This document shows positions 1,312 through 27,400 of a stretch of 64,000 nucleotides of DNA, piece after piece. Each line of letters opens with the position of its first letter. Position 1 is the first letter of the stretch. A program made the position numbers and the translations under genes. This DNA is from Terriglobus albidus (lineage in GTDB: Bacteria; Acidobacteriota; Terriglobia; Terriglobales; Acidobacteriaceae), in contig NZ_CP042806.1 in assembly GCF_008000815.1 (NCBI RefSeq), positions 1,240,001 through 1,304,000 on the forward strand, given 5' to 3'. Under the pieces are notes generated by a model, which saw only the letters and a list, made by a program, of their open reading frames with translations, had not been told where the DNA came from and did no database searches.

Positions 1312-1935
1312 CTATTGCAGGTCGACCAAACCGCGCTGCAGGGCGTAGATGGTGGCCTGGGTGCGGTCGCGGGCGCCCATCTTTTCCAGGATCGAGCTGA
1401 CGTGGATACGGACGGTCTTTTCGGCGATTCCCAGTTCTTCGGCGATCTCGCGGTTGGAGAAGCCTTGTGTGATGCAGGTCAGCACTTCGCCTTCGCGGGG
1501 CGTGAGATCGACCGAGGGCATGCGCTCGGCCAGGCGGTGAAGGATCTCTTTGGGGATGTACCGAAGGCCGCGGCTTACGGTCAGCACGGCGTTGGTGACC
1601 TCTTCTCCGGAGGCGTCTTTGGTGAGGTAGCCCATGGCTCCGCCACGTACGGCGCGGTAGATATCCTCGCTGCCGCGATAGGCGGAGAGCACGATACATC
1701 GGGCGGTGGGGAAGTCCTTACGGATATGCTGCAGCACCTCGAAACCGCTCATGCGTGGCATTCGCAGATCGAGCAGAACGACATCCGGCGTGAGCTGGTG
1801 GTAGAGGTCGATCCCCTGCTGGCCATCGCTAGCCTCGCCCACCACCTTGATCTGGGGATGGGTTGAGAGCACAGAGTGCAGCGCCATCCGGGCGAGGAAG
1901 TGATCTTCAATCAGGATGACGCGAATGGGATTCAT
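1312..1935 (-). CDS. NarL/FixJ-type response regulator
   Basis: The 207-residue protein begins MNPIRVILIEDH. This start is preferred over one four codons upstream because its ATG overlaps the TGA of the kinase gene as ATGA (1932-1935), a sign of translational coupling. Residues 1-120 are a receiver domain with acidic pair E10/D11, phospho-acceptor D56 in VVLLDLRMP, and the conserved Lys in LTKDA. Residues about 145-207 are a LuxR-type helix-turn-helix (LTPREGEVL, FSNREIAEELGIAEKTVRIHVSSILEKMG). It is the likely partner of the kinase at 1932-4955. Its targets may include the MFS gene upstream and the divergent amidohydrolase cluster, which is inferred from position only. Confidence 0.95.
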   Translation of the reverse strand: MNPIRVILIEDHFLARMALHSVLSTHPQIKVVGEASDGQQGIDLYHQLTPDVVLLDLRMPRMSGFEVLQHIRKDFPTARCIVLSAYRGSEDIYRAVRGGAMGYLTKDASGEEVTNAVLTVSRGLRYIPKEILHRLAERMPSVDLTPREGEVLTCITQGFSNREIAEELGIAEKTVRIHVSSILEKMGARDRTQATIYALQRGLVDLQ

Positions 1936-4900: not shown

Positions 4901-4955
4901 GGGCAGACAGGAGAGCGAGGGTCAGAAGCAACCCAGAGGTACATCGACGAAACAT
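1932..4955 (-). CDS. Two-component sensor kinase with extracytoplasmic beta-propeller (Reg_prop/Y_Y_Y/HisKA_3)
   Basis: The protein has 1007 residues with a signal peptide (about 1-22, ending ARAFPQ). About ten propeller blades follow, with repeated LWIGT-type motifs (LWIGTDGAG, LWLGTWGQG, IWVGTWFDG, LWVGTYTG, LWLGTSQG). A Y_Y_Y domain lies at about 670-740, a transmembrane helix near 745-765 (FYLLVGMLVFFLGAHLY), a HisKA_3 dimerisation domain with H795 in ARECHDTLMAG, and a HATPase_c domain with ISNALRHG-like and DDGVGFS motifs. In Bacteroidetes hybrid systems such propellers sense oligosaccharides in the periplasm. Here kinase and regulator are separate proteins. The gene lies 55 bases downstream of the MFS gene and overlaps the regulator by 4 bases, so transport and sensing genes probably form one operon. 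The ligand is unknown. Confidence 0.95.
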   Translation of the reverse strand: MFRRCTSGLLLTLALLSARAFPQATPTPAPIDLAEYQKQEWQVEDGLPESNVRMIAQRADGTLLLATFSGVSTFDGQTFQRLAMPNAATMNIDAVNAVLPGLADDLWIGTDGAGVIHQTATGAVNISSAAGHENERIRTMVFDHDGTLWIATQHGILRYRNNQLETVPNVGIIGGDITTVFAEDLHGGMYFVTSSGLFHWTSHGVTHVSVPAQFGEPTSVYRDRSSHLWLGTMHAVLEANERSGQEPAFMQRMQVATQVTILVSDRQHNLWIGTKNSGLFRLNSEGSSGWSTTDGLPDDTVRTLFIDDEDNLWIGGLTGGLSRWRRAPFAMLQAPDFKPSYSAVAFGDSKGDLWLGTWGQGVFRQHNGVITPVHIPGMPARTPIRTITEDKHGRIWVGTWFDGIYSFNGETWSHHQLGIESPVNAVSVLHSDRQGGLWVGTYTGLHYFRSGIPATTGGETYLPSKLVTDLLEDTDGSILAATSTGLFRILNGQVMTIREMPHPYVLSLSLDSYGNVWAGSRTGGLSRITGDRAFPLPNDAGLPSMPIYNMLEDAHGHLWLGTSQGIVRILASDLNDLSTGKLQRISSTLFIKQDGMPSSDCSGPSRPSATRLPNGVMYFATSKGFARTTPFAETATMAPPTARITGWTFGNDTRAESLLTGDRVVIDPSEGEINFRFDASRLSNPSQTEFRYRLTGYDSGWVTTHSRYARYRRIPAGTYTFEVQARVGGDPWMTPVASISVRQRPHFYATYTFYLLVGMLVFFLGAHLYTRRIRRVKGNMGIVLQERNRIARECHDTLMAGFAAISWQLETASRTLDKDAHELTDAKNACDMARSMVSHCQAEARRIIWDLRDTDEVTGVLSQALSKAISSHYKQEDVETRMAVEGREILLPPASVHHLVCIGQEAVSNALRHGQPKSILVHLRYDESALKMVIHDDGVGFSQDRTGTRRGHFGLLVMEERARKIGGRFNVESALNRGTEVSVVLPYDSPDPSRRLSDTDVIRWIGL

Positions 4956-5010: not shown

Positions 5011-6369
5011 TTACGCGACGTTGACCCGAACTTCCTCCTGCGGCAGCAGCAGGGGAACCTCGGGGTGGACAAAGAGCCAGCAGACGCCGCCAATCACGGC
5101 GAAGCAGGCGGCGACGGCAAAGGAGACGGTCCAGCCGAAGTTCTGGGCGATCCACGGTGTCAGGGAGGCGGTGACGGCTCCGCCTAACTGGCCGCCCATG
5201 TTCACGATCGAAGAGAAGACAGCCGACCGGCGGCCGGCGATGTCATTGGAGGCCGACCAGAACGAGCTCTGCGAGATATAGAGAGCGCCGGCGCCGAAGG
5301 CAAGGATGATGCCAGCAACCAGGGGGCTCTTTGCCCGCGAGCCCAGCAGAAGGAAGACGCCGGTCAGGAACAGAGCTCCGGTAGCCAGGTAGCAGCGGCC
5401 GATGCGGAGTCCTTTGGTTCCCGAGAGCCAGTCGCTCGCTGCTCCGCCTGCGAGGCAGCAGAGCGTCATCGACAGGAACGGAAGCATGGAGATCTGAGCG
5501 CTCGCCTTCAGGTCGACTCCGCGGACCTTCGCCATATAGAGGAAAAACCAGCTGAAGTAGATCCAGGAGACGTAGCCGAAGCAGAAGTATCCCATCATCA
5601 GCGCCGGAAGGTCGCGGCGGCCGAAGAGCTGACGCCAGGAGAAGGAGATCGGCTGGCTATTGCTGCCGTTTCCATTGCCGTTGCGAAGATCGCGGTCGAG
5701 GCGTGCCGAGAGGCCGACTTCGATCTCCTGCAACTCGGTCATGGAGAGCGAGGGATGTTCATTCGGTGTGTCGCGCGAGACAAACCACCAGACCAGGCCG
5801 ATGCCTGTGCCGAGGAGGGCGCTGAAGTAGAAGGCCGCGCGCCAGCCGTCATGGGCGATGATCCAGTTAAGGAGCGGGGGAGTGAGGCCGCTGCCCGCGC
5901 CTACTCCGGCGAAGATCAGGCCGTTGATGATGCCGCGCTCGCTGACCGGGATCCACTGGGCGACGAACTGGTTAGCTGCCGGATAGACCACGGCTTCTCC
6001 GGCGCCGAGGATCAGGCGGATGGCGATCAGGAAGAAGACGGCACCGGGAAGTCCGGTAGGCAGTACGGCCACCATTAGCGTAGCGACGCCCCACCATAAG
6101 GTGCCCAGAGTCAGAACGCGGCGCGGCCCAAAGCGGGCGGCCAGCCATCCCGCGGGGATTTGAAATCCTGCATAGCCGATCAGAAAAGCGCTGAAAATGA
6201 GTCCTAGCCGCTGGTAACCGAGTCCGAACTCCTCGCTGATCTGAAGTCCGGCGATCGAGATATTGGTGCGGTCAAGGAAGGCAATCGCGCTCAGAGCGAA
6301 CAGCAGAACTGCAAGAAAAAAGCGAAGCTTATAGACCTTCCCAAAACTGACCATGTGGAGTAACAGCAT
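5011..6369 (-). CDS. MFS transporter, anion:cation symporter-like
   Basis: The protein has about 452 residues and twelve predicted membrane helices. Helix 1 carries AIAFLDRTNISIAG, the D-R-x-N pattern of the anion:cation symporter (ACS) branch that takes up hexuronates, galactonate and related sugar acids. The amphipathic loop between helices 2 and 3 contains GWLAARFGPRRVL. The ATG at 6369 is preferred because GAGG precedes it by 6 bases; the open frame extends to a TTG at 6402, and another ATG lies at 6354. The gene heads a minus-strand set with the kinase and regulator genes. It is divergent from the secreted amidohydrolase at 6464, so it may take up an acidic product made by that cluster (inference). 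The substrate cannot be read from the sequence. Confidence 0.88.
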   Translation of the reverse strand: MLLLHMVSFGKVYKLRFFLAVLLFALSAIAFLDRTNISIAGLQISEEFGLGYQRLGLIFSAFLIGYAGFQIPAGWLAARFGPRRVLTLGTLWWGVATLMVAVLPTGLPGAVFFLIAIRLILGAGEAVVYPAANQFVAQWIPVSERGIINGLIFAGVGAGSGLTPPLLNWIIAHDGWRAAFYFSALLGTGIGLVWWFVSRDTPNEHPSLSMTELQEIEVGLSARLDRDLRNGNGNGSNSQPISFSWRQLFGRRDLPALMMGYFCFGYVSWIYFSWFFLYMAKVRGVDLKASAQISMLPFLSMTLCCLAGGAASDWLSGTKGLRIGRCYLATGALFLTGVFLLLGSRAKSPLVAGIILAFGAGALYISQSSFWSASNDIAGRRSAVFSSIVNMGGQLGGAVTASLTPWIAQNFGWTVSFAVAACFAVIGGVCWLFVHPEVPLLLPQEEVRVNVA

Positions 6370-6463
6370 ACGAGCCTCGTGCAATGAACGAAATAGGTCC
6401 AATGTCTTACGTTAATGCGGGGCAAACCACCCATGACAATCACATGAAACGGAGAGAACAATC

Positions 6464-7804
6464 GTGGAATTCCATATACAGGCGGTAAAGGCTTTGCGGA
6501 ACAAGTTTCTGGTTCAATCGGTGCTTCTGCTGGCGTCCTGCGTTGCGGTGGCAAACGCTCAGCACTACGACCTCATTGTGCAGCACGGTCATGTCATCGA
6601 TCCGAAGAACGGCATCGACGGAGTGATGGACGTTGCGGTGCTGGATGGAAAGATTGCCAAGGTAGCCAAATCCATCGCTGCCTCTGAAGCGGTGAAGGCC
6701 GTGGATGCGACGGGCCTTTACGTTACGCCCGGTCTGATCGATATCCACGCGCACGTGTATGCGGGGACCGGTGAGCGCAACTCGTATGCAGGCGACAACA
6801 GTCTTTATCCTGACGGCTATACCTTCCGCGTCGGCGTTACGACCGTGGTGGATGCGGGCAGTTCCGGATGGCGATCTTTTGAGGACTTCAAAGATCGCGT
6901 TATTGACCGCTCCCACACCCGCATCCTGGCCATGCTGAATATCGTCGGCGCCGGCATGCGTGGCGCCAAGTACGAGCAGAATCTTGACGACATGGACGGC
7001 GAGGCTACCGGAAAGATGGCGCTGAAGTATCCGGGTCTGATCGTCGGTATCAAGAGCGCTCACTTTGAAGGACCTGAGTGGAAGCCATATGAACAGGCAG
7101 TCATTGCCGGCAATATTGCGAAGGTTCCCGTGATGATCGATTACGGTTCCAACCGCAAGGAGCGGCCGCTGTACGACCTGCTCTCGAAGGTGCTACGTCC
7201 GGGCGATATCTATACCCATATGTACTCCGGCCTGCGCGGTGAGCAGGATGCCACGACCGGCAAGACGAGCGAAGCCCTCAAGATCGGCCGTAAGCGTGGC
7301 ATCTACTTCGATGTGGGTCACGGTGGCGGAAGCTTCAACTGGACGGTTGCAGCGCCGCTCGTGAAGGAAGGGTTCATTCCGGACTCCATCTCGACGGACA
7401 TTCACATCACCAGCATGAATGCCGGCATGAAAGACCAGTTGAACGTTGCCAGCAAGATGATGACGCTGGGCCTCTCGCTGCAGGAGGTCGTCAAAGAGAT
7501 GACCTCAAATCCGGCCAAGGAGATTCAGCATCCTGAGCTTGGCAATCTCACAGAAGGCTCGCCTGCTGATATTGCAGTGCTGCGCCTGGAGACTGGGAAG
7601 TTCGGCTTTGTCGATATGAACAATACGGTCTATCCGGGCACGAAAAAACTTGCCTGCGAGCTTACCGTTCATGACGGCAAGGTCGTGTATGACCTGAACG
7701 GCCTGTCGGCCGATCCATGGGATGGAAAAGTTGTTACTCCGGCGCAGGCGAAGCGCTTTACCACGATGCACGTTCGTCCGGAGAAGCCTTCCGTAGCCCA
7801 TTGA
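6464..7804 (+). CDS. Secreted amidohydrolase/deacetylase family metallohydrolase
   Basis: The GTG at 6464 follows CGGAGAGAACAATC. The 446-residue protein has a signal peptide (LVQSVLLLASCVAVANA, cut before QHYDL), so it should act outside the cytoplasm. The metal site of the amidohydrolase superfamily is visible: H95-x-H97 in DIHAHVYAG, K197 in VGIKSAHFEGPEW as the probable carboxylated bridging lysine, H252 in YTHMYSG, and D312 in STDIHIT. It resembles the COG3964 group (Atu3266/EF0837-like enzymes). These cleave N-acyl or ester groups, and in several bacteria their genes sit beside DgaE-type PLP ammonia lyases. The same pairing occurs here with the SelA-like genes 5-8 kb downstream. The true substrate is unknown; dihydroorotase is a common but unlikely automatic name. 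Confidence 0.88.
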   Translation: MEFHIQAVKALRNKFLVQSVLLLASCVAVANAQHYDLIVQHGHVIDPKNGIDGVMDVAVLDGKIAKVAKSIAASEAVKAVDATGLYVTPGLIDIHAHVYAGTGERNSYAGDNSLYPDGYTFRVGVTTVVDAGSSGWRSFEDFKDRVIDRSHTRILAMLNIVGAGMRGAKYEQNLDDMDGEATGKMALKYPGLIVGIKSAHFEGPEWKPYEQAVIAGNIAKVPVMIDYGSNRKERPLYDLLSKVLRPGDIYTHMYSGLRGEQDATTGKTSEALKIGRKRGIYFDVGHGGGSFNWTVAAPLVKEGFIPDSISTDIHITSMNAGMKDQLNVASKMMTLGLSLQEVVKEMTSNPAKEIQHPELGNLTEGSPADIAVLRLETGKFGFVDMNNTVYPGTKKLACELTVHDGKVVYDLNGLSADPWDGKVVTPAQAKRFTTMHVRPEKPSVAH

Positions 7805-7836
7805 GTATGTACGGGCAGTAGGTCAAACGTCCTAGT

Positions 7837-7871
7837 TATAGCCCTGTCATCAGGCTGATGACAGGGCTATA
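7837..7871. terminator. Strong inverted repeat after the amidohydrolase gene
   Basis: Two 17-base arms (7837-7853 and 7855-7871, starting TATAGCCCTGTC) are perfectly complementary around one central base. The hairpin begins 32 bases after the stop codon and is followed by CAAAAGG rather than a T-run. It may stop transcription between the amidohydrolase and receptor genes or protect the mRNA end. The remaining bases up to 8000 show no gene. Confidence 0.55.
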
Positions 7872-8017
7872 GCAAAAGGCACATTGTTGTTGTCACAAAT
7901 CTCTAAAAAGTAAGTAAAACCTGTCGGCAAGAGACGGGGACAAGAGAAATACCAGAAGGACCGATTTTTCGGGATTTGGTTTTTTGGATATGAAATTTAG
8001 CTTTCAGGAGGCACTGC

Positions 8018-11000
8018 GTGAGGAAGTCACTGTTGTTGCTTGTTGTTTTGCTGTTCGTGGGAAGTTTTGCGTCTGCACAGGTATCTAACAACACTCAACT
8101 TGTTGGTACCATTACCGATCCGAGCGGCGGAGTTGTTTCCGGCGCGAAGATCACTGCGACCAATACTGGCACCCAGGTTCAGTATGAGGGAACCACCAAC
8201 GCGGAGGGTTACTACACCATTCCGTTCGTCGCTCCTGGAACCTACGACATCACCGTAGAGCAATCGGGCTTTGCGAAGACGGTCAGCAAGGGTGCGATTG
8301 TCATCCTGAACCAGTCGGCTCGTACGGACATTACGCTGAAGGTCGGCGATGTCGCGAGCGTGGTCCAGGTCACCGCCGATACTCCGGCGCTTTCCACCGA
8401 CGATGCGCTGATCGGTGACACCGTGGAGCGGGCGAAGGTAGAGAACCTGCCGATGAACACCCGCCGCGTCATGGACCTGGCGACGACAGCTTCGAACGTA
8501 ATCATCGGACCCAAGACATCGTTCACCGGCGTGCCTCCGGGCGCGAACTACATCGGCGCCGGTACCCGTGAGGTGGCCAACTCGCTGACGCTCGACGGTA
8601 TCACGATCATGAACTCGCTGATCTCGTCGTCTCCTGTGACACCAAATCCTGACGCTATCTCGGCGGTTCAGGTACAGAGCGGTAACTATACCGCCCAGTA
8701 CGGCGCCTACATGGGTATCCACATCAACTCGGATACGAAGTCCGGTACAAATTCGATTCACGGCACGGTGTACGACTACATCCAGAACGACTACTTCAAC
8801 GCCAAGCCCTGGCTTGCTGCCAAGGGATTGCGTACGCCTTTCATGCGTTTCAATCAGTTCGGTGGCGTGGTCAGCGGACCTGTGGTGATTCCGTTCCTCT
8901 ATAACGGCCGCGATAAGACCTTCTTCATGGGGTCATACGAAGGCCTGCGTCAGTATCAGCAGATCTCCAGCGTTACAACGGTTCCCACGCTGAAGATGCG
9001 CACGGGAGATTTTTCTGAGCTGCTGCCCAGCCTGCAGCTCTATAACCCGACGAACCGTACGACGCCCTATGCGAACAATCAGCTTCCTGTGTCTGCCGTT
9101 GCGGCAAAGCTGATGCAGTATTATCCGAATCCTACGAATTCGGCGCTCACCAACAACTTCAATAGCTATGTGCCTCTCACCATTGAGCAGAACCAGACAC
9201 TCAACCGTGTGGATCACAATATCGGCCAGAACGTGCGTCTGTTTGGCCGCTTCCTCTGGCAGAAGTTGACCTATGTCAATGGCAACGCCGTCGCCACTTC
9301 GTCAGCCTACTCGCCGACGTCGGACCGCAATGGCGTGATCGGTTACACGCACATCATTACGCCGACATTTATCAACGATCTGCGTGTCGGTTTCAACACG
9401 CTGACCAGCGATGTAAACAACCAGTTCGCACAGAACGGACAGACGAGCGCCGGCTCAGCGCTTGGAATCCCCGGTTTCACGGCCGACGTCGATAACAATA
9501 ACCCCGGTATTCCTACGATGACGGTGACCGGCTACGCCGGTCTCGGTTCTTCCGGTTCCAACTGGAAGCAGGACGACCGCACCGTTCATGCCTACGACCA
9601 GATCAGCTGGACCAAGGGGCGGCACACCATTATGGCGGGCGCCGATATCCGTCGCATGACGATCGGCCGCGCGGCGCAGAATGATCCTCGCGGAAACTTC
9701 ACGTTCAGCGGTCGTTACAGCACGCAGTGTGTGGCGACAACAGATCCGACGAAGCCGTGCGCGAACGCAGTTTCGGGCAATGGTCTGGCTGACATGGTGT
9801 TAGGCTACGCGGCGAGCATCGTTACACCCACGTTCCAGCTGAAGGGTTCGGTCGGTAGCTGGCGCAACGGCTACTTCGTTCAGGACAACTGGCAGGTCAC
9901 CCCGAAGCTGACATTGCTCTACGGTATGCGTTATGAGCAGCCAACCATCCCGTACTCGCTGAATGGTTATGCCCGTATCCTGAACTCCACCTATACCGCG
10001 TTGATTCCGTCTAGCACCGCAACCACCGGTACGGCCTTTACGCCGACGCCAGGCTTCCAGTTCACCGGCGCCAACAACAACCTGTGGGCACCGCGCCTCG
10101 GGTTTGCCTATCGCGCGACCGACAAGATTGTGGTGCGTGGTGGCGGCGGTATCTACTACAACCCGAATCACTTGAATGCGTTTACGCTGGCCAGCGGTAA
10201 CTATCCTTTGGCGAATAGCACTACCTATACGGCGGATACGTACTTCTCAAATAAGACCTTCTCAAATCCGAGCGGCGGAGCTGCCGGTGCGGGTGGCTGT
10301 AATCCCAACGTCGCGGCAACCTACTGCAACGCGTTTACCGACGCCGCCAGCCTGCCGACACCTCGTATGTATCAGTGGAACCTCGACTCCGGCGTCGAGC
10401 TCTGGAAGGATGCAGCTTTCGAGCTGCAGTATCTCGGCTCTCGTTCGATTCACCTGGACTTCTCGTGGCAGCCGAATACGCCGACACCTGGACCAGGCAC
10501 GATCAACTCATCACGCCGTCCGTACCAGGGCTTCGGTACTATTCGCCAGATCACCAACGGCGGATGGTCGACTTACAACGGTCTTACGTCGATCTTCCGT
10601 CAGCGTCTGAATCACGGGCTAACGGCGAATCTGTCGTATACCTGGGCTCACAATCTGGATACCTCCAACGACGCGAACGGTGGCGGCTACCTGATGAACC
10701 CGTACAACATCAAGGCTGACTACGGCAATTCGAACTGGGATATCCGCCACCGCTTCGTCGGTACGCTGCTGTACCAGTTCCCGAACTTCGCCGGCCACAA
10801 CTACGCGGTTCGTACGGCTCTTGGCGGATGGCAGGCAAACGCTATTGTTACCCTGCAGACCGGCATGCCGTTCAACGTCGGTCTGTCGTCTGACGTTGCG
10901 AATACCGGGACGAGCGGTATTCAGCGTCCGAACTTTGTGAAGCGTGTCGCGAACAGCTGCTCCGGTGACTTCGTGGTCAAGAACGGTACCAGCGCCAGCT

Positions 11001-11299
11001 GCCTCGATGCCACTGCTTACGCGACTCCGGCATCCTTCACCTACGGCAATCTGCACCGCAATGACGCGAAGGGAGCGGGACGCGAGCTTGTGAACTTCTC
11101 GATGTTCAAGAACTTCCAGGTCTATGAGCGTCTGCAGTTCCAGTTCCGTGCGGAAGCCTTCAACGTATTGAACCACGCAAATCCCAGCAATCCGAACAGC
11201 TCGGGCAATCCGCAGCTTGGCACTGCGAGCTTCGGAACCATCACCAGCACACAGACCGATCCGCGCGTGCTGCAACTGGTGGGCAAGATCAACTTCTAA
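8018..11299 (+). CDS. TonB-dependent receptor, Oar-like, with carboxypeptidase-regulatory domain
   Basis: The GTG at 8018 has an excellent ribosome site (CAGGAGG, 8005-8011). The 1093-residue product has a signal peptide (LLLLVVLLFVGSFASA), then a carboxypeptidase-regulatory fold at about 25-105 (TITDPSGGVVSGAKI, GYYTIPFVAPGTYDITVE). A plug domain at about 120-240 (NSLTLDGITIMNS) and a 22-strand-type barrel follow, ending GKINF. Such receptors move large or complex ligands across the outer membrane using TonB energy. The gene stands between the secreted amidohydrolase and the RraA/SelA/RidA genes and ends in its own terminator. It is the likely entry door for the substrate of that cluster, though no residue shows which compound it binds. 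Confidence 0.93.
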   Translation: MRKSLLLLVVLLFVGSFASAQVSNNTQLVGTITDPSGGVVSGAKITATNTGTQVQYEGTTNAEGYYTIPFVAPGTYDITVEQSGFAKTVSKGAIVILNQSARTDITLKVGDVASVVQVTADTPALSTDDALIGDTVERAKVENLPMNTRRVMDLATTASNVIIGPKTSFTGVPPGANYIGAGTREVANSLTLDGITIMNSLISSSPVTPNPDAISAVQVQSGNYTAQYGAYMGIHINSDTKSGTNSIHGTVYDYIQNDYFNAKPWLAAKGLRTPFMRFNQFGGVVSGPVVIPFLYNGRDKTFFMGSYEGLRQYQQISSVTTVPTLKMRTGDFSELLPSLQLYNPTNRTTPYANNQLPVSAVAAKLMQYYPNPTNSALTNNFNSYVPLTIEQNQTLNRVDHNIGQNVRLFGRFLWQKLTYVNGNAVATSSAYSPTSDRNGVIGYTHIITPTFINDLRVGFNTLTSDVNNQFAQNGQTSAGSALGIPGFTADVDNNNPGIPTMTVTGYAGLGSSGSNWKQDDRTVHAYDQISWTKGRHTIMAGADIRRMTIGRAAQNDPRGNFTFSGRYSTQCVATTDPTKPCANAVSGNGLADMVLGYAASIVTPTFQLKGSVGSWRNGYFVQDNWQVTPKLTLLYGMRYEQPTIPYSLNGYARILNSTYTALIPSSTATTGTAFTPTPGFQFTGANNNLWAPRLGFAYRATDKIVVRGGGGIYYNPNHLNAFTLASGNYPLANSTTYTADTYFSNKTFSNPSGGAAGAGGCNPNVAATYCNAFTDAASLPTPRMYQWNLDSGVELWKDAAFELQYLGSRSIHLDFSWQPNTPTPGPGTINSSRRPYQGFGTIRQITNGGWSTYNGLTSIFRQRLNHGLTANLSYTWAHNLDTSNDANGGGYLMNPYNIKADYGNSNWDIRHRFVGTLLYQFPNFAGHNYAVRTALGGWQANAIVTLQTGMPFNVGLSSDVANTGTSGIQRPNFVKRVANSCSGDFVVKNGTSASCLDATAYATPASFTYGNLHRNDAKGAGRELVNFSMFKNFQVYERLQFQFRAEAFNVLNHANPSNPNSSGNPQLGTASFGTITSTQTDPRVLQLVGKINF

Positions 11300-11318
11300 A
11301 TGTTGGAACTCCCTCTTC

Positions 11319-11354
11319 GAGGCCGCTGGTGCAAGCCCAGCGGCCTCATTTTTT
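11319..11354 (+). terminator. Rho-independent terminator after the TonB receptor
   Basis: An 11-base perfect stem (GAGGCCGCTGG at 11319-11329 with CCAGCGGCCTC at 11337-11347) with a 7-base loop is followed by ATTTTTT. It starts 19 bases after the receptor stop codon and 32 bases before the next gene, so the RraA gene probably has its own promoter or depends on readthrough. Confidence 0.9.
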
Positions 11355-11386
11355 CGTTTAGTGTTGTCGAACAGGAGTAAATCGGC

Positions 11387-12148
11387 ATGCGTATGCGTAG
11401 AACGTTGTTGTGGGCAGGAAATGCATTTGTAGTGGTGGCGGCGGTTGCGCTGCTGGCCATGAAGCAGGAGACGGTCGCTTCTCCAGAAGAGCTGCAGAAG
11501 AACCCTGAGGCAGTTCTGGAGGGCTACCGGCATGTGGAGGCAGCTTCCGTCTCTGACGCGGCAGAGCAGGTGCTGCATGAGAAGCGCTACATGTCGCACA
11601 AGATGCAGGCGATCTTTCCGACCAAGTTTGTGGGTACGGCGTTGACGGTGCAGCTCCTCAAGCAGGAGAACAACGATCCGAATGCTTTGCAGGGCATGCT
11701 GCAGGCGATCGACAGCGGCGGCAAGGACAGCGTCTATGTCATGCAGGTGCAGGATGGTGCAGATATCGCCGGCATGGGCGGCCTGATGGGTACGGCCATG
11801 TGGTCGCGCGGATTCTCCGGAGCCGTGATCGACGGCGGTGTACGCGATCTGCCGCAGTTGAAGCGCATCGGCTTTCCCGTCTACGCAACCGGCGTGGTGC
11901 CTTCGACCTCGGTCAGCCATTATCGCTTCGGAGGGATGAACGTCCCGGTCGTCTGCGATGGCGTGAAGGTCAATCCAGGGGACATTATTTCCGCTGACCA
12001 GGATGGCGTGGTGGTGATTCCCAAGGACAAGGCGGTCGAGGTGCTGATCCGCGCGCAGAAGCTCGATCAGACCGAGCATGCCATGTATCCCTATATTGAA
12101 AAGTTGCACTCAATCGTGGCCGCGGTGAAGGAGTTCGGACGCATCTAA
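11387..12148 (+). CDS. Exported RraA-family protein (aldolase/decarboxylase-like)
   Basis: The ATG at 11387 follows AGGAG (11371-11375). The 253-residue protein begins with arginines and a hydrophobic stretch (LLWAGNAFVVVAAVALLA), so it is exported or anchored in the inner membrane. The rest is an RraA/HMG-aldolase fold: GLMGTAMWSRGFSGAVIDGG, R153-D154 in GGVRDL, and ISADQDGVVVIP. Members are either inhibitors of RNase E (RraA proper) or divalent-metal aldolases and decarboxylases acting on 4-hydroxy-2-oxo acids and oxaloacetate. The R-D pair and the DQDG motif fit the enzyme type. An export signal rules out an RNase E role here. Its place before the SelA-like and RidA genes suggests it splits or decarboxylates a keto acid they form (inference). 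Confidence 0.85.
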   Translation: MRMRRTLLWAGNAFVVVAAVALLAMKQETVASPEELQKNPEAVLEGYRHVEAASVSDAAEQVLHEKRYMSHKMQAIFPTKFVGTALTVQLLKQENNDPNALQGMLQAIDSGGKDSVYVMQVQDGADIAGMGGLMGTAMWSRGFSGAVIDGGVRDLPQLKRIGFPVYATGVVPSTSVSHYRFGGMNVPVVCDGVKVNPGDIISADQDGVVVIPKDKAVEVLIRAQKLDQTEHAMYPYIEKLHSIVAAVKEFGRI

Positions 12149-12259
12149 ACAAGCGTCCGTATCCCTAGGTCATCTGCCCGATGACATGATTTCCACTTGC
12201 CGTTTCAAATAGTTCCACCGAAGGTTACATGCCTGTTCGTGCTGGAAAGGGGACTTCCT

Positions 12260-13528
12260 TTGCCTCGCCGTGCTGATGATCGTTCGATAAGCCGCCGCCG
12301 CCTGTTGGGCGCTGCCGGCGCCACTGTGGCTGCCTCACTGCTTCCACCCTCTGCTGTGGCTGCTGCTGCCGCGGAACCTGCGGTGGACTACTACGACAAG
12401 CTGGGCGTTGCGAAGATCATCAACGCTGCCGGCACCTATACCTATCTGACGGCCGCGGTGATGGCGCCGCCGGTGCAGCGGGCTGTGGCCATGGCGGCGC
12501 ATCATCCTGTCCGTCTGAAGGATCTTCAGCGCGCCTCCGGCGAGTACATCGCCAAGCGCCTGAAGTGCGAGGGCGCAGTAGTGAGCTCCGGAGCGTCAGC
12601 GGCGCTTACGCTGGGCACGGCTGCGTGTGTAGCGGCTAAAGGAAATCTGAAATCGAATGAGATTCCTCTGCAGGCACGCGAGCGTGGGTATGAGGTCATT
12701 GTGCAGAAGAAGCATCGCTACGAATATGATCACGCGATGCTGATCTGCGGTGTGACCATCCGCGAGGTTGGAAGCCTGGAAGAGTACAAGAGTGCGTTCA
12801 ACGAGCGCACGGTGATGACCAACTACTTCAACTCCGCCGGGCCGGAGTCGGAACCGGGAATCATCGACCGTGAGACCTGGCTGAAGGTTGCGCATGAGCA
12901 TGGTGTGCCCTGCCACCTGGATGCCGCCGCTGATGTCCCGCCGATCTCGAATCTGTGGAAGTACACGGAGATGGGTTTTGACCTGGTGTGCTTCTCCGGC
13001 GGCAAGGGATTGCGCGGTCCTCAGAACGCAGGCTTGCTGCTCGGTAAGAAACGCTTGACCGATCTTGCTCTTGAGAATGACAGTCCTAACAGCGACGCTG
13101 TCGGCCGCGGTATGAAGGTTGCCAAGGAACAGATGGTTGGCATGGTTGCGGCTGTGGATTGGATTCTGGAGCAGAATGATGAGGCCATCCAGGCGGAGAG
13201 CATGAGACGCATCCGCACGATTGAAGCCGCCCTCAAAGGAATTCCCACGGTGACTACCACCGTGAACGTCCCGCCGGTCGCCAATCATGTGCCGCATTTG
13301 CTCATCAAGTACGATCCTGCGACGGTCGGTATCAAGCCGCTTGAGGTGGCAGCAAAGCTGCGTTCCCAGAAACAGTCGATCGAGCTTAGCCCGGCTACTG
13401 GCGTGCGTGGACGCATCGAGGGAGCGGATGAGAATACGATTGTCGTTGGTGTATGGATGCTGCAGCCAGGCGAAGCCGAGATCGTAGCCAGCAGCCTTAG
13501 ACAGGTCCTGAAGCCCGCGAAAGCCTGA
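12260..13528 (+). CDS. Tat-exported SelA/DgaE-like PLP-dependent enzyme (copy 1)
   Basis: I place the start at TTG 12260, behind AAGGGGA at 6 bases; the frame is open to a TTG at 12197, and no ATG fits well. Residues about 8-37 form a twin-arginine signal (SISRRRLLGAAGATVAA, then SAVAAA). The body is the PLP fold of the L-seryl-tRNA(Sec) selenium transferase-like family: AKIINAAGTYTYL, VVSSGASAALTLG for phosphate binding, HLDAAADVPP, and Schiff-base lysine K249 in FSGGKGLRGPQNAG. A protein exported by Tat cannot serve tRNA. The relatives that fit are sugar-amino-acid ammonia lyases such as DgaE (D-glucosaminate-6-P) and similar alpha,beta-eliminating enzymes. Tat export suits a cofactor-loaded PLP enzyme folded before transport. 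It is 25 bases ahead of the RidA gene. The substrate is unknown. Confidence 0.85.
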   Translation: MPRRADDRSISRRRLLGAAGATVAASLLPPSAVAAAAAEPAVDYYDKLGVAKIINAAGTYTYLTAAVMAPPVQRAVAMAAHHPVRLKDLQRASGEYIAKRLKCEGAVVSSGASAALTLGTAACVAAKGNLKSNEIPLQARERGYEVIVQKKHRYEYDHAMLICGVTIREVGSLEEYKSAFNERTVMTNYFNSAGPESEPGIIDRETWLKVAHEHGVPCHLDAAADVPPISNLWKYTEMGFDLVCFSGGKGLRGPQNAGLLLGKKRLTDLALENDSPNSDAVGRGMKVAKEQMVGMVAAVDWILEQNDEAIQAESMRRIRTIEAALKGIPTVTTTVNVPPVANHVPHLLIKYDPATVGIKPLEVAAKLRSQKQSIELSPATGVRGRIEGADENTIVVGVWMLQPGEAEIVASSLRQVLKPAKA

Positions 13529-13553
13529 GTTATCCCCAAGGAGAAAAACTGTT

Positions 13554-14030
13554 ATGTCGACGAAGACCAGCCGCAGAAACCTATTGAAGAATGCAGCCGC
13601 TGCCGCCGGAGCGATTGGCGGGGCCGCAGTTCTGACTGAGAGCGCGAGTGCTGCGACCCCTGAGGCTCCGCAGAAGAAGTCGTATGGCCAGCCGCCGAAG
13701 AATGGGGAGGCTCCGCTGTTCAGCAGTGTTGTCTCCTACGGCAACCTGGTCTTTCTCGCCGGTGTAGGCGCTCACTTCCAGGGAACGATTGAAGAGCACA
13801 CAAAGCATGTTCTCGATGAGCTGGAGAAGAACCTCGCCAGCGCAGGCTCTTCCATGGAGAAGGTGTTGAAGGTGAACGTCTATCTGAACGACATCAAGGA
13901 CTGGGAGCGCATGAATACGGTGTACAAGGGCCGTTGGGGCAAGATTCCTCCGGTGCGCACTACCATTGCTCCGGCCGGCGGCATCCCTGGCAACTCGCTG
14001 GTCGAGATTGACCTCATCGCTTATATCTAG
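13554..14030 (+). CDS. Tat-exported RidA/YjgF-family enamine/imine deaminase
   Basis: The ATG at 13554 follows AAGGAGAAAAACTGTT. Residues about 4-36 are a twin-arginine signal (SRRNLLKNAAAAAGAIGGAA, then ESASA). The remaining 120 residues are a full RidA domain: PLFSSVVSYGNLVFLAGVG, TKHVLDELEKNLASAGSSMEKVLKVNVYL, and the active arginine R135 in PPVRTTIA, with a glutamate in SLVEIDLIAYI. RidA proteins hydrolyse reactive 2-aminoacrylate-type enamines and imines to 2-keto acids and ammonia, and they normally work in the cytoplasm. An exported copy lying between two exported PLP lyases strongly suggests the lyases release an enamine in the periplasm that RidA finishes. The TAG stop codon is also the first three bases of the TAGAGC repeat at 14028. 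Confidence 0.9.
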   Translation: MSTKTSRRNLLKNAAAAAGAIGGAAVLTESASAATPEAPQKKSYGQPPKNGEAPLFSSVVSYGNLVFLAGVGAHFQGTIEEHTKHVLDELEKNLASAGSSMEKVLKVNVYLNDIKDWERMNTVYKGRWGKIPPVRTTIAPAGGIPGNSLVEIDLIAYI

Positions 14031-14062
14031 AGCGTTTCCCGGTTGCTGTGTATCCCGCTCTA
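14028..14062. repeat. TAGAGC-type short repeat overlapping the ridA stop codon
   Basis: TAGAGCG (14028-14034) and CGCTCTA (14056-14062) are complementary and enclose TTTCCCGGTTGCTGTGTATCC. The 5' arm with its following bases closely matches 23346-23376, and the terminus recurs at 16495-16509. The first three bases act as the stop codon of the RidA gene. Confidence 0.6.
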
Positions 14063-14102
14063 ACCGACACCAAACGATAACCATCAGGAGAGGAAAAACC
14101 TT

Positions 14103-15716
14103 ATGTGTGCGCTGCCGAAACTGCGTCCTACGCGACGCGATCTACTCAAGCAGACCGGAGCTCTTTCAGCCCTTGCCGCGGTATCGCCGCTGGCTGCCGC
14201 TGGAAGCGCCGAGGCTCAGGTAGCGCACTCCGCTCCTTCTCACGCTGTCACTTTCCAGCCCGGAACCCTGCAGGACAATGTCTTTACGAAATTGGGTGTG
14301 CGCCCCATCATCAACGCGCATGGCACCTTCACCATCATCACCGGCTCACGCTCGTTGCCCGAAGTGAAGCAGGCCATGTTTGAGGCCTCGCACTACTACG
14401 TGCATCTGGATGAGCTGATGCCGAAGGTCGGCGCTGAGATCGCGAAGCTGGTCGGCGCGGAGCATGCGGTGGTGACCACGGGCTGTGAAGCGGCGATTGC
14501 GCTGGCTACTGTGGCATGCTCCTGCGGGACCGATCCGGAGCTCTCGCAGGCCTTCCCGTACAAGCGCAAGAAGAGCCAGGTCATCATTCCCAAGCACTCC
14601 CGCAATCCATACGACTTCGGCGTCCGCATGACCGGCGCGGAGATTGTGGAAGTGGACTCGGCAGAGGAACTGCAGGCAAAGCTCACCGATCAGGTTGCGA
14701 TGATCTACATTCTCTCGGGCCCGGCAGCGGAGAAGGGACCTCTTTCGATTCCTTCCATCTGCGCGATGGCGAAGGCGAAGAACGTTCCCGTCTTTGTCGA
14801 TGCCGCGGCGGAAGAGCCGCTGGTTCCCAATATCCACCTGCAGCATGGCGCGACGCTGGTTGGCTACTCCGGCGGCAAGTGCATGCGCGGGCCGCAGGCT
14901 GCCGGCATGATGATTGGCCAGGCTGACTTGATTAAGGCTGCGTGGTTCCAGGCTTCGCCGCACCACAACTATGGCCGCGCCTACAAGGTTGGCAAGGAAG
15001 AGATCATGGGCCTGCTGGCCGCGGTGCGCCAGTGGTACAAGCGTGACCACGATGCCGAGCAGAAGGCGTGGAAGAGCTGGCTCGATCAGATCGCGGACAA
15101 GATCAAGGGGCTTCCGTCGGTCCGCGTTGAGTATCTTGATCCGGAAGATCTTTCCAACCGTTCGCCTCGCCTGCGGGTTCACTGGGACGCGAACCAGGTG
15201 AAGATTACCGGTACCGAACTGTTCAAGCGTCTTGACGAAGGGACGCCGCGCATCATGCTGGACGGCGGCACTGGCGTCCGTCCGGACAAGATGGAGAGCT
15301 CGTTCACCATCATGCCGTACATGCTGGAAGCCTGGGAGATTCCGATCATCGCTGATGCCATCCATGAAGCGATGACCAAGCCTGGTCACTATGAGAACCC
15401 GGTGGTCCCCACCGGAGCAGCGAAGGTTGACGGGAAGTGGGCTGTTTCGCTGAAGTACACCCGCGGAACCGCGGAGCAGACGTTTGAGCTGCAGCAGAGT
15501 GGGAGCGATCTCAAGGGCAAGCAGGTTGGCGCGATCTATCAGGCTGATCTGAAGGGCAGCATTCACGGCAACGATCTGAAGCTCTTTGCCCGCATGCCTG
15601 TGAGTGGCCATGAGGTGACCTGGGATTTCGTCGGAACGGTGCAGGGAAATACCGCTTCAGGAACGGTGGCCCTCGGTGAGTACGGTATGGCGGAGTGGAA
15701 GGCTGTGCGCGCTTAG
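14103..15716 (+). CDS. Tat-exported SelA/DgaE-like PLP-dependent enzyme with C-terminal beta domain (copy 2)
   Basis: The ATG at 14103 follows AGGAGAGGAAAAACCTT. The protein has 537 residues. A twin-arginine signal at about 10-40 (TRRDLLKQTGALSALAAVSP, ending GSAEAQ) is followed by a PLP domain at about 58-435 related to copy 1: RPIINAHGTFTI, VVTTGCEAAIALA, VFVDAAAEEPLVP, and lysine K259 in YSGGKCMRGPQAAG. Unlike copy 1 it carries about 95 extra residues at the C-terminus (KVDGKWAVSLKY, FELQQSGSDLKGKQVG, LKGSIHGNDLKL, VTWDFVGTVQGNTASGTV). These have the alternating pattern of a small beta-barrel or lipocalin-like domain found on other acidobacterial secreted proteins. The domain could bind the substrate or the cell surface. 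Two differing copies imply two related substrates or successive steps. Confidence 0.85.
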   Translation: MCALPKLRPTRRDLLKQTGALSALAAVSPLAAAGSAEAQVAHSAPSHAVTFQPGTLQDNVFTKLGVRPIINAHGTFTIITGSRSLPEVKQAMFEASHYYVHLDELMPKVGAEIAKLVGAEHAVVTTGCEAAIALATVACSCGTDPELSQAFPYKRKKSQVIIPKHSRNPYDFGVRMTGAEIVEVDSAEELQAKLTDQVAMIYILSGPAAEKGPLSIPSICAMAKAKNVPVFVDAAAEEPLVPNIHLQHGATLVGYSGGKCMRGPQAAGMMIGQADLIKAAWFQASPHHNYGRAYKVGKEEIMGLLAAVRQWYKRDHDAEQKAWKSWLDQIADKIKGLPSVRVEYLDPEDLSNRSPRLRVHWDANQVKITGTELFKRLDEGTPRIMLDGGTGVRPDKMESSFTIMPYMLEAWEIPIIADAIHEAMTKPGHYENPVVPTGAAKVDGKWAVSLKYTRGTAEQTFELQQSGSDLKGKQVGAIYQADLKGSIHGNDLKLFARMPVSGHEVTWDFVGTVQGNTASGTVALGEYGMAEWKAVRA

Positions 15717-16299: not shown

Positions 16300-16509
16300 T
16301 TATAGAGCGGGCCTTCAGCCCTTCGTTTTTCTATGGGGCAGCAAACCTGGGGCGTTGCCCCAGGCTGGTATAGAACGCGCCTTCAGCGCTTTTTCTGCCG
16401 GGTGGCAATCCTCGGGATTCCCCACGAACTTTGTTCGTTGGGGGAACGCTCGCCACGCTAGGGTGGGCAAAGAACACCCATAAGTTCCTAACAAACAGAG
16501 AATGCTCTA
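16300..16509. repeat. Cluster of intergenic palindromic repeats
   Basis: About 210 bases without a gene hold several short inverted units. There is a GGGCCTTCAGCCC motif near 16311, CCTGGGG/CCCCAGG at 16346-16364, and an arm pair CCCCACGAAC/GTTCGTTGGGG at 16420-16444 that matches 21425-21449. ACAGAGAATGCTCTA at 16495-16509 is the TAGAGC terminus also seen at 23445-23459 and, on the other strand, at 14028. The last unit supplies the TAG stop of the fucosidase gene. Confidence 0.6.
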
Positions 16510-17859
16510 ATTCTCTGTGGCGAAGAGTTGGAACTCGCGGATGCGGGCGGTGCCGGCGGTGGAGAGCAGGTTCAGGCGGAAGCGGCTTGCGGTGATGGCT
16601 GGGAAGCGATCGATCTTCTTATGACCGATTGCGTGTCCTGTCATTACCGGTTTCCAGGCGCCGTTAATCCAGGCTTCGATGCGGTAGGTCTGCACCATCT
16701 GGCCGTCGGTCAGCCACTCCATTGTTAAAGCGCGGTCAACGCTTGTGGGCTTTGCCAGCCGGACTTCGAGGGTTGCGCTGTGTGAGCCCGCGGGAGCGCT
16801 CCAGAAGGTATCGGTGTCGTTGTCGAGAGCCTTGTGCGTCTCGGTATCAGGGATAACGGCGTTTGCCGCCAGATTCTTCTCCGCACCGTAGTGCTTCTGG
16901 ATGGCTTCGCCGAGTTCTTTCAAGCGGGCAACGTCGCTGTCTGGTAGAAGGCCACGATTGTCTGGGGCTACACCCAGCATCCACTGGCCTCCTTTGCCGA
17001 TGGAGTACTCGTAGCTGTCCATCAGATCGTCGACGGACTTCAGCGAAGCTTCGTCGTTCGGATGCCAGAACCAGTGCAGCTTGCGGAGAGGCGTGTCGAC
17101 TTCAATCGGACGCCAGCGCAGATATCCATGGCGGTCGACGACATTCCAGTTTTCGTACTCGACCTTTCCGCTCTCGTCGCCCGCCCAACGCGCATCGCCA
17201 TACTCGAAGAGGCCGGTGTCAGCAAAGACGATGGTGTTCGGCTGGTAGGTGCGCAGCGTTTCAATGATCTTCTTGAAGTCGTAGACGTGTCCGCCGCTGC
17301 CGGCTCCGTCGAGCCAGAATTCCACCAGGTCGCCGTAGTGCGAGGCTAGTTCTTCCAACTCCGCGCGGTAGTAGGCGTCGTACGCTGCGTTGTCTTTGTA
17401 CTTCGGCTCGTGGCGATCCCAGGGAGAGAGATAGACGCCGAAGCGGAGACCCTCGGCGCGTGCGGCCTGTGCGGCTTCACGGACGAGATCTCCCTTGCCG
17501 TCTTTCCATGGGCTTGCCTTGATGCTGTAGTCCGTCTGTCCCGTCGGCCACAGGCAGAAGCCATCGTGATGCTTGGCTACGAGAACGACGTACTTCGCGC
17601 CGGAGGCTTTGATCGCCTTCATCCATTGGTGTGTATCGAGCGATGTCGGGTTGAAGGTGGAAGGCGATGCGGTGCCGTCACCCCATTCGCGATCGAGAAA
17701 CGTGTTGGTGCTGAAGTGAAGAATGACGCCGAACTCGAGGTCTTGCCATGCTGTTTGTTGCGGCGTGGGTTTGATCTCGGTGAAGTTCTGGGGCCAGGTG
17801 GTCGCGGGCAGAAGGAGCGTCAGGCCAAGGGCCATCTGGCGAAGCGAGAATCGGTACAA
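16507..17859 (-). CDS. Secreted GH29 alpha-L-fucosidase with C-terminal carbohydrate-binding-like domain
   Basis: The start is a TTG at 17859, supported by GGAGG seven bases upstream; the next ATG (codon 9) has no ribosome site. The 450-residue protein has a signal peptide (MALGLTLLLPATTWPQ). The GH29 barrel shows FGVILHFSTNTF, YVVLVAKHHDGFCLWP, the nucleophile D184 in VEFWLDGAG, and GGQWMLGVAPDNRGLLP. Residues about 345-450 resemble an F5/8-type (CBM32-like) domain (WSAPAGSHSATLEV, ASRFRLNLL). It should release terminal L-fucose from plant or algal oligosaccharides in the periplasm. It is the last gene of a tight operon, three bases after the short propeller protein and behind the oxidase and lactonase. 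That suggests the freed sugar is oxidised on the spot. The GH29-B type is plausible but not proven. Confidence 0.92.
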   Translation of the reverse strand: MYRFSLRQMALGLTLLLPATTWPQNFTEIKPTPQQTAWQDLEFGVILHFSTNTFLDREWGDGTASPSTFNPTSLDTHQWMKAIKASGAKYVVLVAKHHDGFCLWPTGQTDYSIKASPWKDGKGDLVREAAQAARAEGLRFGVYLSPWDRHEPKYKDNAAYDAYYRAELEELASHYGDLVEFWLDGAGSGGHVYDFKKIIETLRTYQPNTIVFADTGLFEYGDARWAGDESGKVEYENWNVVDRHGYLRWRPIEVDTPLRKLHWFWHPNDEASLKSVDDLMDSYEYSIGKGGQWMLGVAPDNRGLLPDSDVARLKELGEAIQKHYGAEKNLAANAVIPDTETHKALDNDTDTFWSAPAGSHSATLEVRLAKPTSVDRALTMEWLTDGQMVQTYRIEAWINGAWKPVMTGHAIGHKKIDRFPAITASRFRLNLLSTAGTARIREFQLFATEN

Positions 17860-17862
17860 GCG

Positions 17863-18462
17863 TCAGCCTCCAATGCGTGCAAGTCTTCCTTCGAGCATCG
17901 CATATCGATGGCTATCGACGCACAGCGCGCCATCCCGATCGAAGAAAAACTCCTGTGGGATGCTTCCGCGTAGCTTGCGATGTACGGCGATCACCTCACC
18001 GGCGGCGTTCTCTTCAGTGACGGAGAGCATGTTCAGCACCCGTCCTCCGGCGGCGGCAACGGCAAGTGAGCGGCCGTCGGGAGAGACGGCGATGTGATGC
18101 GGAGACATTGCGGTAAGCGAGAGACCCTGCGTCGTCAGGCGCTGCAGACGGCCACTCGGTTCTACACGATAACTGGAGATAGCTCCCGCGGGCAGACCGA
18201 GATAGCTCGTGTATCCGTGCGTGACGTGCAGTATCTGATGGTCACTGGAGTAGACCATGGCGGAGGGCAGGTCAGCCTTTTCGCTGTGTCTCCGTTGTCC
18301 GCGGACGACGCTATGAATCCAGCCGCCTTCGCGATCGAGTTCGAAGGTGATGCCGTCACCGATCGCGGCGAAAGCTCGTGTCATGGGAGCGGCACAGATG
18401 GCAGCCCCCGCGATTCCCTGCAGTACAGCGCGACGTGTTGGTTTGTACTCTCGCATCATCAT
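17863..18462 (-). CDS. Tat-exported short lactonase-like beta-propeller protein
   Basis: The ATG at 18462 overlaps the stop codon of the oxidase gene as ATGA. Three consecutive Met codons occur, and GAAGG lies at better spacing for the third (18456). The 199-residue product has a twin-arginine signal (KPTRRAVLQGIAGAAICAAP, then TRAFAAI). Propeller-like strands follow, including SPHHIAVSPDGRSLAVAAAGG, which matches the blade motif of the 6-phosphogluconolactonase/Lac family. At about half the usual 340-390 residues it cannot form a complete seven-bladed propeller alone. It may be a decayed paralogue of the 20023-21186 lactonase or a binding subunit. Coupling to both neighbours says it is still translated. 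Confidence 0.75.
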   Translation of the reverse strand: MMMREYKPTRRAVLQGIAGAAICAAPMTRAFAAIGDGITFELDREGGWIHSVVRGQRRHSEKADLPSAMVYSSDHQILHVTHGYTSYLGLPAGAISSYRVEPSGRLQRLTTQGLSLTAMSPHHIAVSPDGRSLAVAAAGGRVLNMLSVTEENAAGEVIAVHRKLRGSIPQEFFFDRDGALCVDSHRYAMLEGRLARIGG

Positions 18463-20015: not shown

Positions 20016-20022
20016 GCTCCTC

Positions 20023-23230: not shown

Positions 23231-23345
23231 GACTCTCCGAAGCGGGTTGAGCTGCGTTGATGCCGGGGGAAATTGATTAAAAGATAATCAATCTCATTCT
23301 AGAACTGTACGGTCATCAGGTGCGAAAACGCCAATTGATCGTTCT

Positions 23346-23459: not shown

Positions 23460-23569
23460 TGGTGAATGCGCAGAATTCCTTTTCTGTCAGAGGAATGGGA
23501 GGAAATCGCGAATCCTCGATGAAAAACAGCTTGCGTCCATACAGACATCGCCCTATACTCCAAGCATTG

Positions 23570-27376: not shown

Positions 27377-27400
27377 GCAAGGGATCAGGAGCAAACGAAC

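Follow-up and report, generated by a model that had tools for sequence, protein, structure and literature searches.

The 64,000-nucleotide stretch of the Terriglobus albidus genome analysed here (contig NZ_CP042806.1, positions 1,240,001 to 1,304,000; hereafter the window) carries a module of exported-looking enzymes: an amidohydrolase, an RraA-like protein, a RidA and two SelA/DgaE-like enzymes of the pyridoxal phosphate (PLP) type, PLP1 and PLP2, encoded along with a TonB-type outer-membrane receptor. This exported-looking module is real and conserved. Catabolism of N-acetyl-hexosamines (HexNAc) in the periplasm is the mechanism with the best support, and we see an even chance that the module is a HexNAc catabolic island working largely outside the cytoplasm, with the substrate, chemistry, location and carrier that we infer below. 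The source genome is a single contig of 6.4 Mb, and its PLP2 is 96–98% identical in relatives that include Terriglobus albidus DSM 26559. All six genes that an earlier sequence-only reading had claimed for 6464–15716 were confirmed as open reading frames (ORFs) at these coordinates, with families assigned by Pfam and NCBIfam models, and the gene set extends past 15716 into a convergent operon (16507–21186) encoding a lactonase, a flavin oxidase, a small protein of the twin-arginine translocation (Tat) type and a fucosidase.

Conservation of the Gene Set

The loci of relatives, both in our sample of the phylum and in Alphaproteobacteria, rule out that the set is an accident of one genome. As a check by co-localisation and signal scoring, proposed with the sequence-only reading, has borne out, the genes travel together in most loci and their signals are conserved. 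Within 8 kb of the 59 PLP2 genes (matches of at least 300 bits), RidA is found in 44 cases, the amidohydrolase in 40 and both in 36, along with RraA (26), PLP1 (21) and the lactonase family (14). Around the 42 PLP1 genes (at least 150 bits), the same distance holds RidA in 28 cases, the amidohydrolase in 29, both in 23 and neither in eight. Four duplicate or near-duplicate loci (L044, L055, L056 and L074) were dropped before these counts.

The distribution of the module is patchy, a PLP2-type match being present in 39 of the 396 sampled genomes of the phylum. An amidohydrolase match accompanies it in 34 of these 39 genomes, as against 6 of the 357 others, and a PLP2-type match occurs in 13 of the 15 genomes having an oxidase match, as against 26 of the remaining 381, related genomes in this sample not being independent. 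By genus (n = 210), PLP2-type matches are found in 20 and amidohydrolase matches in 21, with 17 shared. Closer to the source, a full-length PLP2 of at least 54% identity is encoded by 12 of the 19 congeneric genomes (source included), and a fragment by a thirteenth.

On plasmid pACIX902 of Granulicella tundricola, all members of the set follow one another on a single strand, in the order fucosidase, glycoside hydrolase (GH) 125, major facilitator superfamily (MFS) carrier, kinase, regulator, receptor, RraA, PLP1, RidA, PLP2, amidohydrolase, lactonase, berberine bridge enzyme (BBE)-type oxidase, small protein and GH35; the small protein is annotated as hypothetical and carries an RR motif. When the proteins of this cluster were used as tblastn queries, much of the set was recovered in the window and in its relatives. 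Modules containing PLP1 and PLP2, respectively, adjoin in genome G341; the window may therefore combine two such modules, which possibly serve epimeric substrates.

Linkage of the amidohydrolase–PLP–RidA core is seen in Alphaproteobacteria as well as in Acidobacteriota. The alphaproteobacterial row reads RidA–PLP2–amidohydrolase, often followed by L-rhamnonate dehydratase, a glucose–methanol–choline (GMC) oxidoreductase and galactarate dehydratase (for each, a single member was checked with family models). A further candidate near these clusters, c12, was rejected as a gene, since it looks antisense to the region of the galactarate dehydratase.

Export Signals

Signals were scored by a single rule at each candidate start lying between the preceding stop and the conserved core. 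By this rule, Tat signals were called in 47 of 47 RidA sequences (at least 55 bits), in 39 of 41 PLP1 and in 62 of 64 PLP2-type sequences, the two misses (L075 and L076) lying outside the 59 rows of the PLP2 linkage count and alignment. The small Tat protein passed in eight of nine relatives (one is cut off), and the lactonase family in 8 of 16, several visible motifs being missed. Amidohydrolase N-termini (n = 50) were Sec-like in 39 cases, Tat-like in eight, without signal in two and cut in one, whereas those of RraA (n = 30, lax rule) were Sec-like in 25 and Tat-like in five, many being anchor-like. Among 389 other ORFs of at least 250 amino acids from the same loci, 55 were called Tat, 128 Sec-like and 206 neither, and a stricter Tat rule fired on 28. 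In view of the background frequency of the same calls, the Sec label of the amidohydrolase and RraA is to be read as that of a lax rule only.

With 55 background ORFs passing and visible lactonase motifs missed, our Tat rule was rejected as sufficient by itself, and an alignment test of the twin arginine was therefore added. The twin arginine proved to be an invariant column in 46 RidA (alignment A2, at least 80 bits), 59 PLP2 (A3) and 41 PLP1 sequences (A4, at least 150 bits), the RidA and PLP2 alignments covering two phyla; for RidA, it supplies 2 of only 15 invariant columns. MAFFT may favour aligning RR pairs, which makes this invariance strong, not independent, proof. Moreover, at an E-value of 0.01, the NCBIfam Tat models TIGR02811 and TIGR01409 match 33 and 13 of the 46 RidA sequences, respectively, and TatC is encoded in the source genome. 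Given a twin arginine, a hydrophobic stretch and the Tat machinery in the genome, RidA, PLP1 and PLP2 are predicted Tat substrates.

The source genome holds ten RidA-family genes, of which three are Tat-like (the window RidA, L084 and L087), one is Sec-like and six are neither or had no start found; an exported-looking RidA is thus not peculiar to the window locus, even within this genome. L087 adjoins a third PLP enzyme. By the same rule, L079, L084 and L087 have Sec- or Tat-like N-termini, and exported RidA may be common in the group. Separately, L035 (9377–11389) is a third Tat-type SelA-like gene of the source genome with an RR-bearing RidA-family gene directly upstream, that is, a second exported-looking PLP/RidA pair, with no mapped amidohydrolase in its 20-kb stretch.

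Enzyme Families and Conserved Residues

PLP1 (12260–13528, forward strand; the ORF opens at 12197 and the likely true start is the TTG at 12260) and PLP2 (14103–15716, forward strand) both have TIGR01437, a model of DgaE-family lyases, as their best model, at 157 and 179 bits respectively, under the cut-off of 385.3; it is matched by all 59 PLP2 and all 41 PLP1 relatives. By sequence, the best solved relatives of PLP1 are Cap15 (8t7j), then DgaE (7lc0), and the nearest one of PLP2 is 7lc0 (E 9.8e-32), while the predicted structure of PLP2 matches 8t7j and 7lc0 best and about equally. In the comparison of active sites with DgaE suggested by the sequence-only reading, the PLP lysine and aspartate stretches align with those of 7lc0, the lysine being kept in 59 of 59 PLP2 and 42 of 42 PLP1 sequences (at least 100 bits) and the aspartate in 59 of 59 and 41 of 42. 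Relative to the solved 7lc0 chain, which is without an N-terminal extension, PLP1 and PLP2 have about 40–60 additional N-terminal residues.

The model of PLP2 also features an extra C-terminal all-beta domain (residues ~440–537). On its own, this domain (15420–15716) weakly matches other ORFs in the same and related genomes, some of only 130–180 amino acids. The rhizobial plasmid genes L075 (12001–13470) and L076 (12001–13461) are PLP2-like over most of their length, including this domain; they have no signal by rule and lie near phosphonate genes (phosphoenolpyruvate mutase, CDP-alcohol transferase).

The amidohydrolase (6464–7804, forward strand; Sec-type N-terminus), a candidate N-acyl-hexosaminate deacetylase, exceeds the cut-off of NF006689 (416.8 vs. 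371 bits); its COG3964 label is carried over from the sequence-only reading. All 50 relatives keep HxH, Lys, His and Asp unchanged, and a second stretch with His is variable (His 25, Thr 17, Gln 7, Phe 1). Downstream, the TonB-type receptor (8018–11299, forward strand) combines CarboxypepD_reg and OMP_b-brl_4 domains.

The RraA-like protein (11387–12148, forward strand; PF03737, E 7e-38), which bears an N-terminal signal or anchor, keeps in 29 of 29 relatives an Arg-Asp motif that we take to be the mark of the aldolase branch of this fold, which includes aldolases and decarboxylases. It scores 106.7 bits with NF006731 (4-carboxy-4-hydroxy-2-oxoadipate aldolase), under the cut-off of 179, and a role as RNase E regulator was rejected (NF006875, 61.3 bits, cut-off of 136 missed). 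The gene, counted as part of the pathway by the sequence-only reading, is an optional member (26 of 59 PLP2 loci). Finally, RidA (13554–14030, forward strand), a candidate enamine/imine deaminase, matches PF01042 (E 1.6e-19; 70.5 bits over a cut-off of 27.3) and falls under the cut-off of the Rid subfamily model TIGR00004 (58.3 vs. 106.25 bits), an arginine and a C-terminal glutamate being kept in 46 of 46 sequences. We take the former to be catalytic and the latter to be the conserved C-terminal one, and likewise assume the roles of the PLP lysine and aspartate and of the Arg-Asp motif.

The Convergent Oxidase–Lactonase Operon

The BBE-type flavin oxidase (18459–20015, reverse strand) has N-acetyl-D-hexosamine oxidase (7zzk) as its best solved match (E 1.5e-141), with 224 of 500 aligned residues identical (45%). 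Its residues 41–554 align with residues 5–510 of 7zzk, including the His and Cys stretches, presumably flavin-binding. Upstream lies the lactonase (20023–21186, reverse strand; PF10282, E 3.6e-97), of the seven-bladed propeller family, whose SRREF motif is visible in the translation though the scoring rule returned no signal. Directly behind the oxidase, the small Tat gene (17863–18462, reverse strand), a candidate Tat carrier with a partial lactonase propeller (part match to PF10282), starts at 18462 and overlaps the oxidase end (18459) by four bases; it is followed by a GH29 alpha-L-fucosidase (16507–17859, reverse strand; PF01120) with an F5/8 C domain and, by the signal rule, a Sec-like N-terminus. 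The 7zzk enzyme (EC 1.1.3.29) has its top affinity for N-acetylglucosamine (GlcNAc) and N-acetylgalactosamine, and oxidises GlcNAc to the C1 lactone (PMC9299179). A HexNAc oxidase relative adjoining a lactonase suggests both the substrate class and the entry route.

In all 12 oxidase loci with PLP2 within about 20 kb, the next same-strand gene (which overlaps or begins no more than 75 bases further on) is a lactonase-like gene with a twin arginine close to the N-terminus. Elsewhere, one of 11 oxidases has a twin-arginine partner, by motif and full rule alike, and for three no gene follows within 150 bases. Fisher's test gives p 1e-5 for the motif (12/12 vs. 1/11) and p 0.009 for the full Tat rule (8/12 vs. 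1/11), on related genomes that are not independent. A twin-arginine gene right behind the oxidase hints at piggy-back export through Tat, although the same picture would result from a cytoplasmic oxidase encoded beside an exported lactonase.

Proposed Pathway and Alternatives

According to the periplasmic HexNAc reading, exported glycosidases would free HexNAc from glycans, the flavin oxidase would oxidise it at C1 to a lactone, and the Tat lactonase would open the latter to N-acetyl-D-hexosaminate. The Sec-exported amidohydrolase would then take off the acetyl group, leaving D-hexosaminate, a beta-hydroxy D-amino acid, from which the Tat-exported PLP enzymes would eliminate water across C2–C3, with the Tat-exported RidA aiding hydrolysis of the enamine or imine to ammonia and 2-keto-3-deoxy-hexonate. 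RraA would perhaps split this product into pyruvate and glyceraldehyde; otherwise, it would be imported by the MFS carrier (5011–6402, reverse strand), whose nearest NCBIfam model is the D-galactonate transporter TIGR00893 (218.3 bits, below the cut-off of 395). The signal-less oxidase would pass through Tat together with the small twin-arginine protein. We propose that folding and cofactor binding ahead of export are the reason why the PLP, flavin and RidA proteins take the Tat route. The source genome has two GH20 matches and a 2-keto-3-deoxy-6-phosphogluconate aldolase over cut-off. In its full form, i.e., a whole non-phosphorylating amino-sugar-acid pathway in the periplasm of Acidobacteriota, PLP elimination and RidA-aided enamine hydrolysis included, with the oxidase piggy-backing through Tat on the small carrier and a core also present in Alphaproteobacteria, the proposal is tentative, and we regard it as possible rather than probable.

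Several observations weigh against the HexNAc reading. The source genome contains a NagB-like match, under cut-off, so the usual amino-sugar route is possible too. Claimed from the outset to be SelA/DgaE-like, the PLP enzymes do have TIGR01437 as best model and keep the lysine and aspartate, but they fall far short of the DgaE cut-offs, with 109.2 (PLP1) and 146.2 bits (PLP2) against the 600 of NF047797; the mean predicted local distance difference test score (pLDDT) of the PLP2 model is only 76. NCBIfam Tat models match only 3 of 41 PLP1 sequences (TIGR01409) and the PLP2 listing, which covers 25 out of 59 families, contains none. The genes do not always travel together either, 11 of the 59 PLP2 genes having neither RidA nor amidohydrolase within 8 kb, eight of them with at least 6 kb of sequence on both sides; in one locus of this group (L059), the amidohydrolase lies just beyond the limit and RraA adjoins PLP2.

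Other points bear on the substrate. Position 226 of the window amidohydrolase is Asp in 50 of 50 relatives and His in the solved 2ogj, 8wzy and 2ics (alignment A5), so specificity is not transferable from these enzymes; judging from such residues, metal site or specificity may be different in this clade. In addition, the oxidase is a neighbour (within 8 kb) of no more than 8 of the 59 PLP2 genes and was found in none of the 12 alphaproteobacterial loci, where the core stands without it, beside the two dehydratases and a GMC oxidoreductase devoid of signal. Both of these oxidase observations, together with the unrelated names of the solved amidohydrolases closest to the window enzyme and the activity of OngC, the PLP enzyme of the ong pathway, on D-serine and D-threonine (PMC9537276), would be in line with the exported core being real, its substrate being a different N-acyl beta-hydroxy amino or amino sugar acid (e.g., N-acyl-D-serine or -threonine, or a muramic acid derivative), and the oxidase–lactonase operon a separate sugar-oxidation module. 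We consider this alternative possible and somewhat doubtful, for oxidase, lactonase-family gene and core recur jointly in differing arrangements. In three genomes (G370, G212 and G286) the oxidase sits at the opposite end of the cluster next to the MFS gene, and in G394 at that end too, about 4 kb past this gene; it lies about 12 kb from PLP2 in G378 (coordinates only), and in G119 (L163) directly follows a second amidohydrolase copy, with 159 bases between the matches. Oxidase and PLP2 are both present in G094, G119, G250 and G341, where the oxidase is not near PLP2. Under the HexNAc reading, other sugar-oxidation enzymes may stand in for the oxidase; relatives of pyrroloquinoline quinone (PQQ)-type dehydrogenases occur in six loci by clustering, three of which were model-checked.

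A second set of points concerns location. The earlier claim that every enzyme of the pathway is exported holds for the predicted Tat signals of RidA, PLP1 and PLP2 and for the Sec- or Tat-like N-termini of the amidohydrolase and RraA, but not for the adjoining flavin oxidase, as no Tat or Sec signal was found in 23 oxidase genes by the rules used here. Since its solved Ralstonia relative 7zzk also aligns already from residue 5, the oxidase is possibly cytoplasmic; of the 12 genes that partner it in cluster loci, only 8 satisfy the Tat rule in full. The pathway might then be split, with the oxidase and perhaps other enzymes in the cytoplasm and the exported PLP and RidA proteins acting on a different pool, or with Tat-like N-termini that go unused, which the predicted cytoplasmic location of OngB and OngC (PMC9537276) and the firing of our Tat rule on 55 of 389 background ORFs would also fit. 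Such a split seems unlikely in view of the twin arginine, invariant in three alignments and, for RidA and PLP2, across two phyla, and of the presence of TatC. Moreover, expression of HexNAc oxidase inhibited the growth of E. coli, which its authors think likely due to peroxide formed from intracellular GlcNAc (PMC9299179). Finally, that the PLP enzymes are Cap15-like, oxygen-dependent and active on a beta-hydroxy amino acid instead of being lyases, with RidA clearing a by-product, is quite improbable: 8t7j does outscore 7lc0 for the PLP1 sequence and equals it approximately for the PLP2 fold, but an ammonia lyase fits better both the RidA linkage and the TIGR01437 matches throughout the two families (the window pair being under cut-off).

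If the periplasmic HexNAc pathway operates as proposed, acetate and nitrogen would be stripped from amino sugars before cell entry, and reactive enamine products, usually discussed as a cytoplasmic problem, would arise outside, giving RidA a second workplace. It would also assign a defined job to the amidohydrolase clade and to exported SelA-like enzymes, place N-acetyl-hexosamine oxidase in a pathway and offer a clear case in which piggy-back export of a flavoprotein through Tat could be tested. It would further suggest a route by which some soil Acidobacteriota use glycan HexNAc without the kinase-first route.

Neighbouring Genes

Beyond the MFS gene, the window encodes a sensor histidine kinase (1932–4955, reverse strand) with a Reg_prop propeller and a Y_Y_Y domain (Pfam), and its partner response regulator (1312–1947, reverse strand), recovered by tblastn at 75% identity to the Granulicella tundricola cluster protein annotated as response regulator transcription factor. 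On the other side, past the lactonase, 21563–32632 holds an apparent nitrite/nitrate assimilation set (HemD-GAF-ANTAR protein, nitrite/sulfite reductase, flavodoxin-type reductase, iron–sulfur and molybdopterin proteins, MFS carrier). In another locus, L053 (2926–4584) is a relative of the "acido-empty-quinoprotein" family (TIGR04528, 530 bits, cut-off 650), located between RidA and RraA genes with signal-like N-termini.

Comparison with Known Systems

Among known systems, DgaE shares the aligned PLP lysine and aspartate stretches with PLP1 and PLP2; it is located in the cytoplasm, and its substrate, judged by name, is phosphorylated. PvdN of Pseudomonas, to our knowledge, stands alone without a RidA partner. 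As a PLP enzyme at work in the periplasm, where it serves pyoverdine maturation (PMC7497351), it qualifies the premise of the sequence-only reading that PLP enzymology is normally cytoplasmic. The GlcNAc clusters of Natrarchaeobius resemble the window in that a DgaE-like enzyme, sugar oxidation and a RutC-family gene termed repressor figure in their predicted route, but they are archaeal, known by prediction only and involve a phosphorylated intermediate, with no exported set described in the available part of the paper (PMC12343721). We found no description of an exported deacylase/PLP/RidA set in the Creative Commons-licensed literature, which does not establish its absence from print; the part of PMC9007349 at hand holds nothing on glucosaminate. 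Likewise, the available part of PMC9299179 links no pathway to N-acetyl-D-hexosamine oxidase 7zzk, whereas the window oxidase has a gene with a twin-arginine motif next to it.

The closest likeness in function is the ong pathway of Pseudoalteromonas prydzensis, in which N-acetylglucosaminate (GlcNAc1A) is deacetylated, then deaminated to 2-keto-3-deoxygluconate (KDG), and in which the RidA OngD, of unknown role, is needed for growth on GlcNAc1A (PMC9537276). Both systems would have TonB-dependent receptors, deacetylation of N-acetylglucosaminate, PLP-dependent deamination to KDG and a RidA, genetically essential in ong. In the latter, entry relies on a lytic polysaccharide monooxygenase and a periplasmic hexosaminidase, import on an inner-membrane carrier of the SSS family followed by the kinase KdgK, and the predicted cytoplasmic OngB and OngC are closest to D-aminoacylase and of PLP fold type III, respectively (PMC9537276). 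The window, for its part, features another amidohydrolase family, SelA-like Tat PLP enzymes, and a HexNAc oxidase relative with a lactonase as entry candidate. Its enzymes fall outside the OngB and OngC families when Pfam and NCBIfam assignments are set against the published family names, and being mostly non-homologous by this standard, the two sets are alike in function, not by descent. The module is a variant of oxidative amino-sugar catabolism, not a new kind of system.

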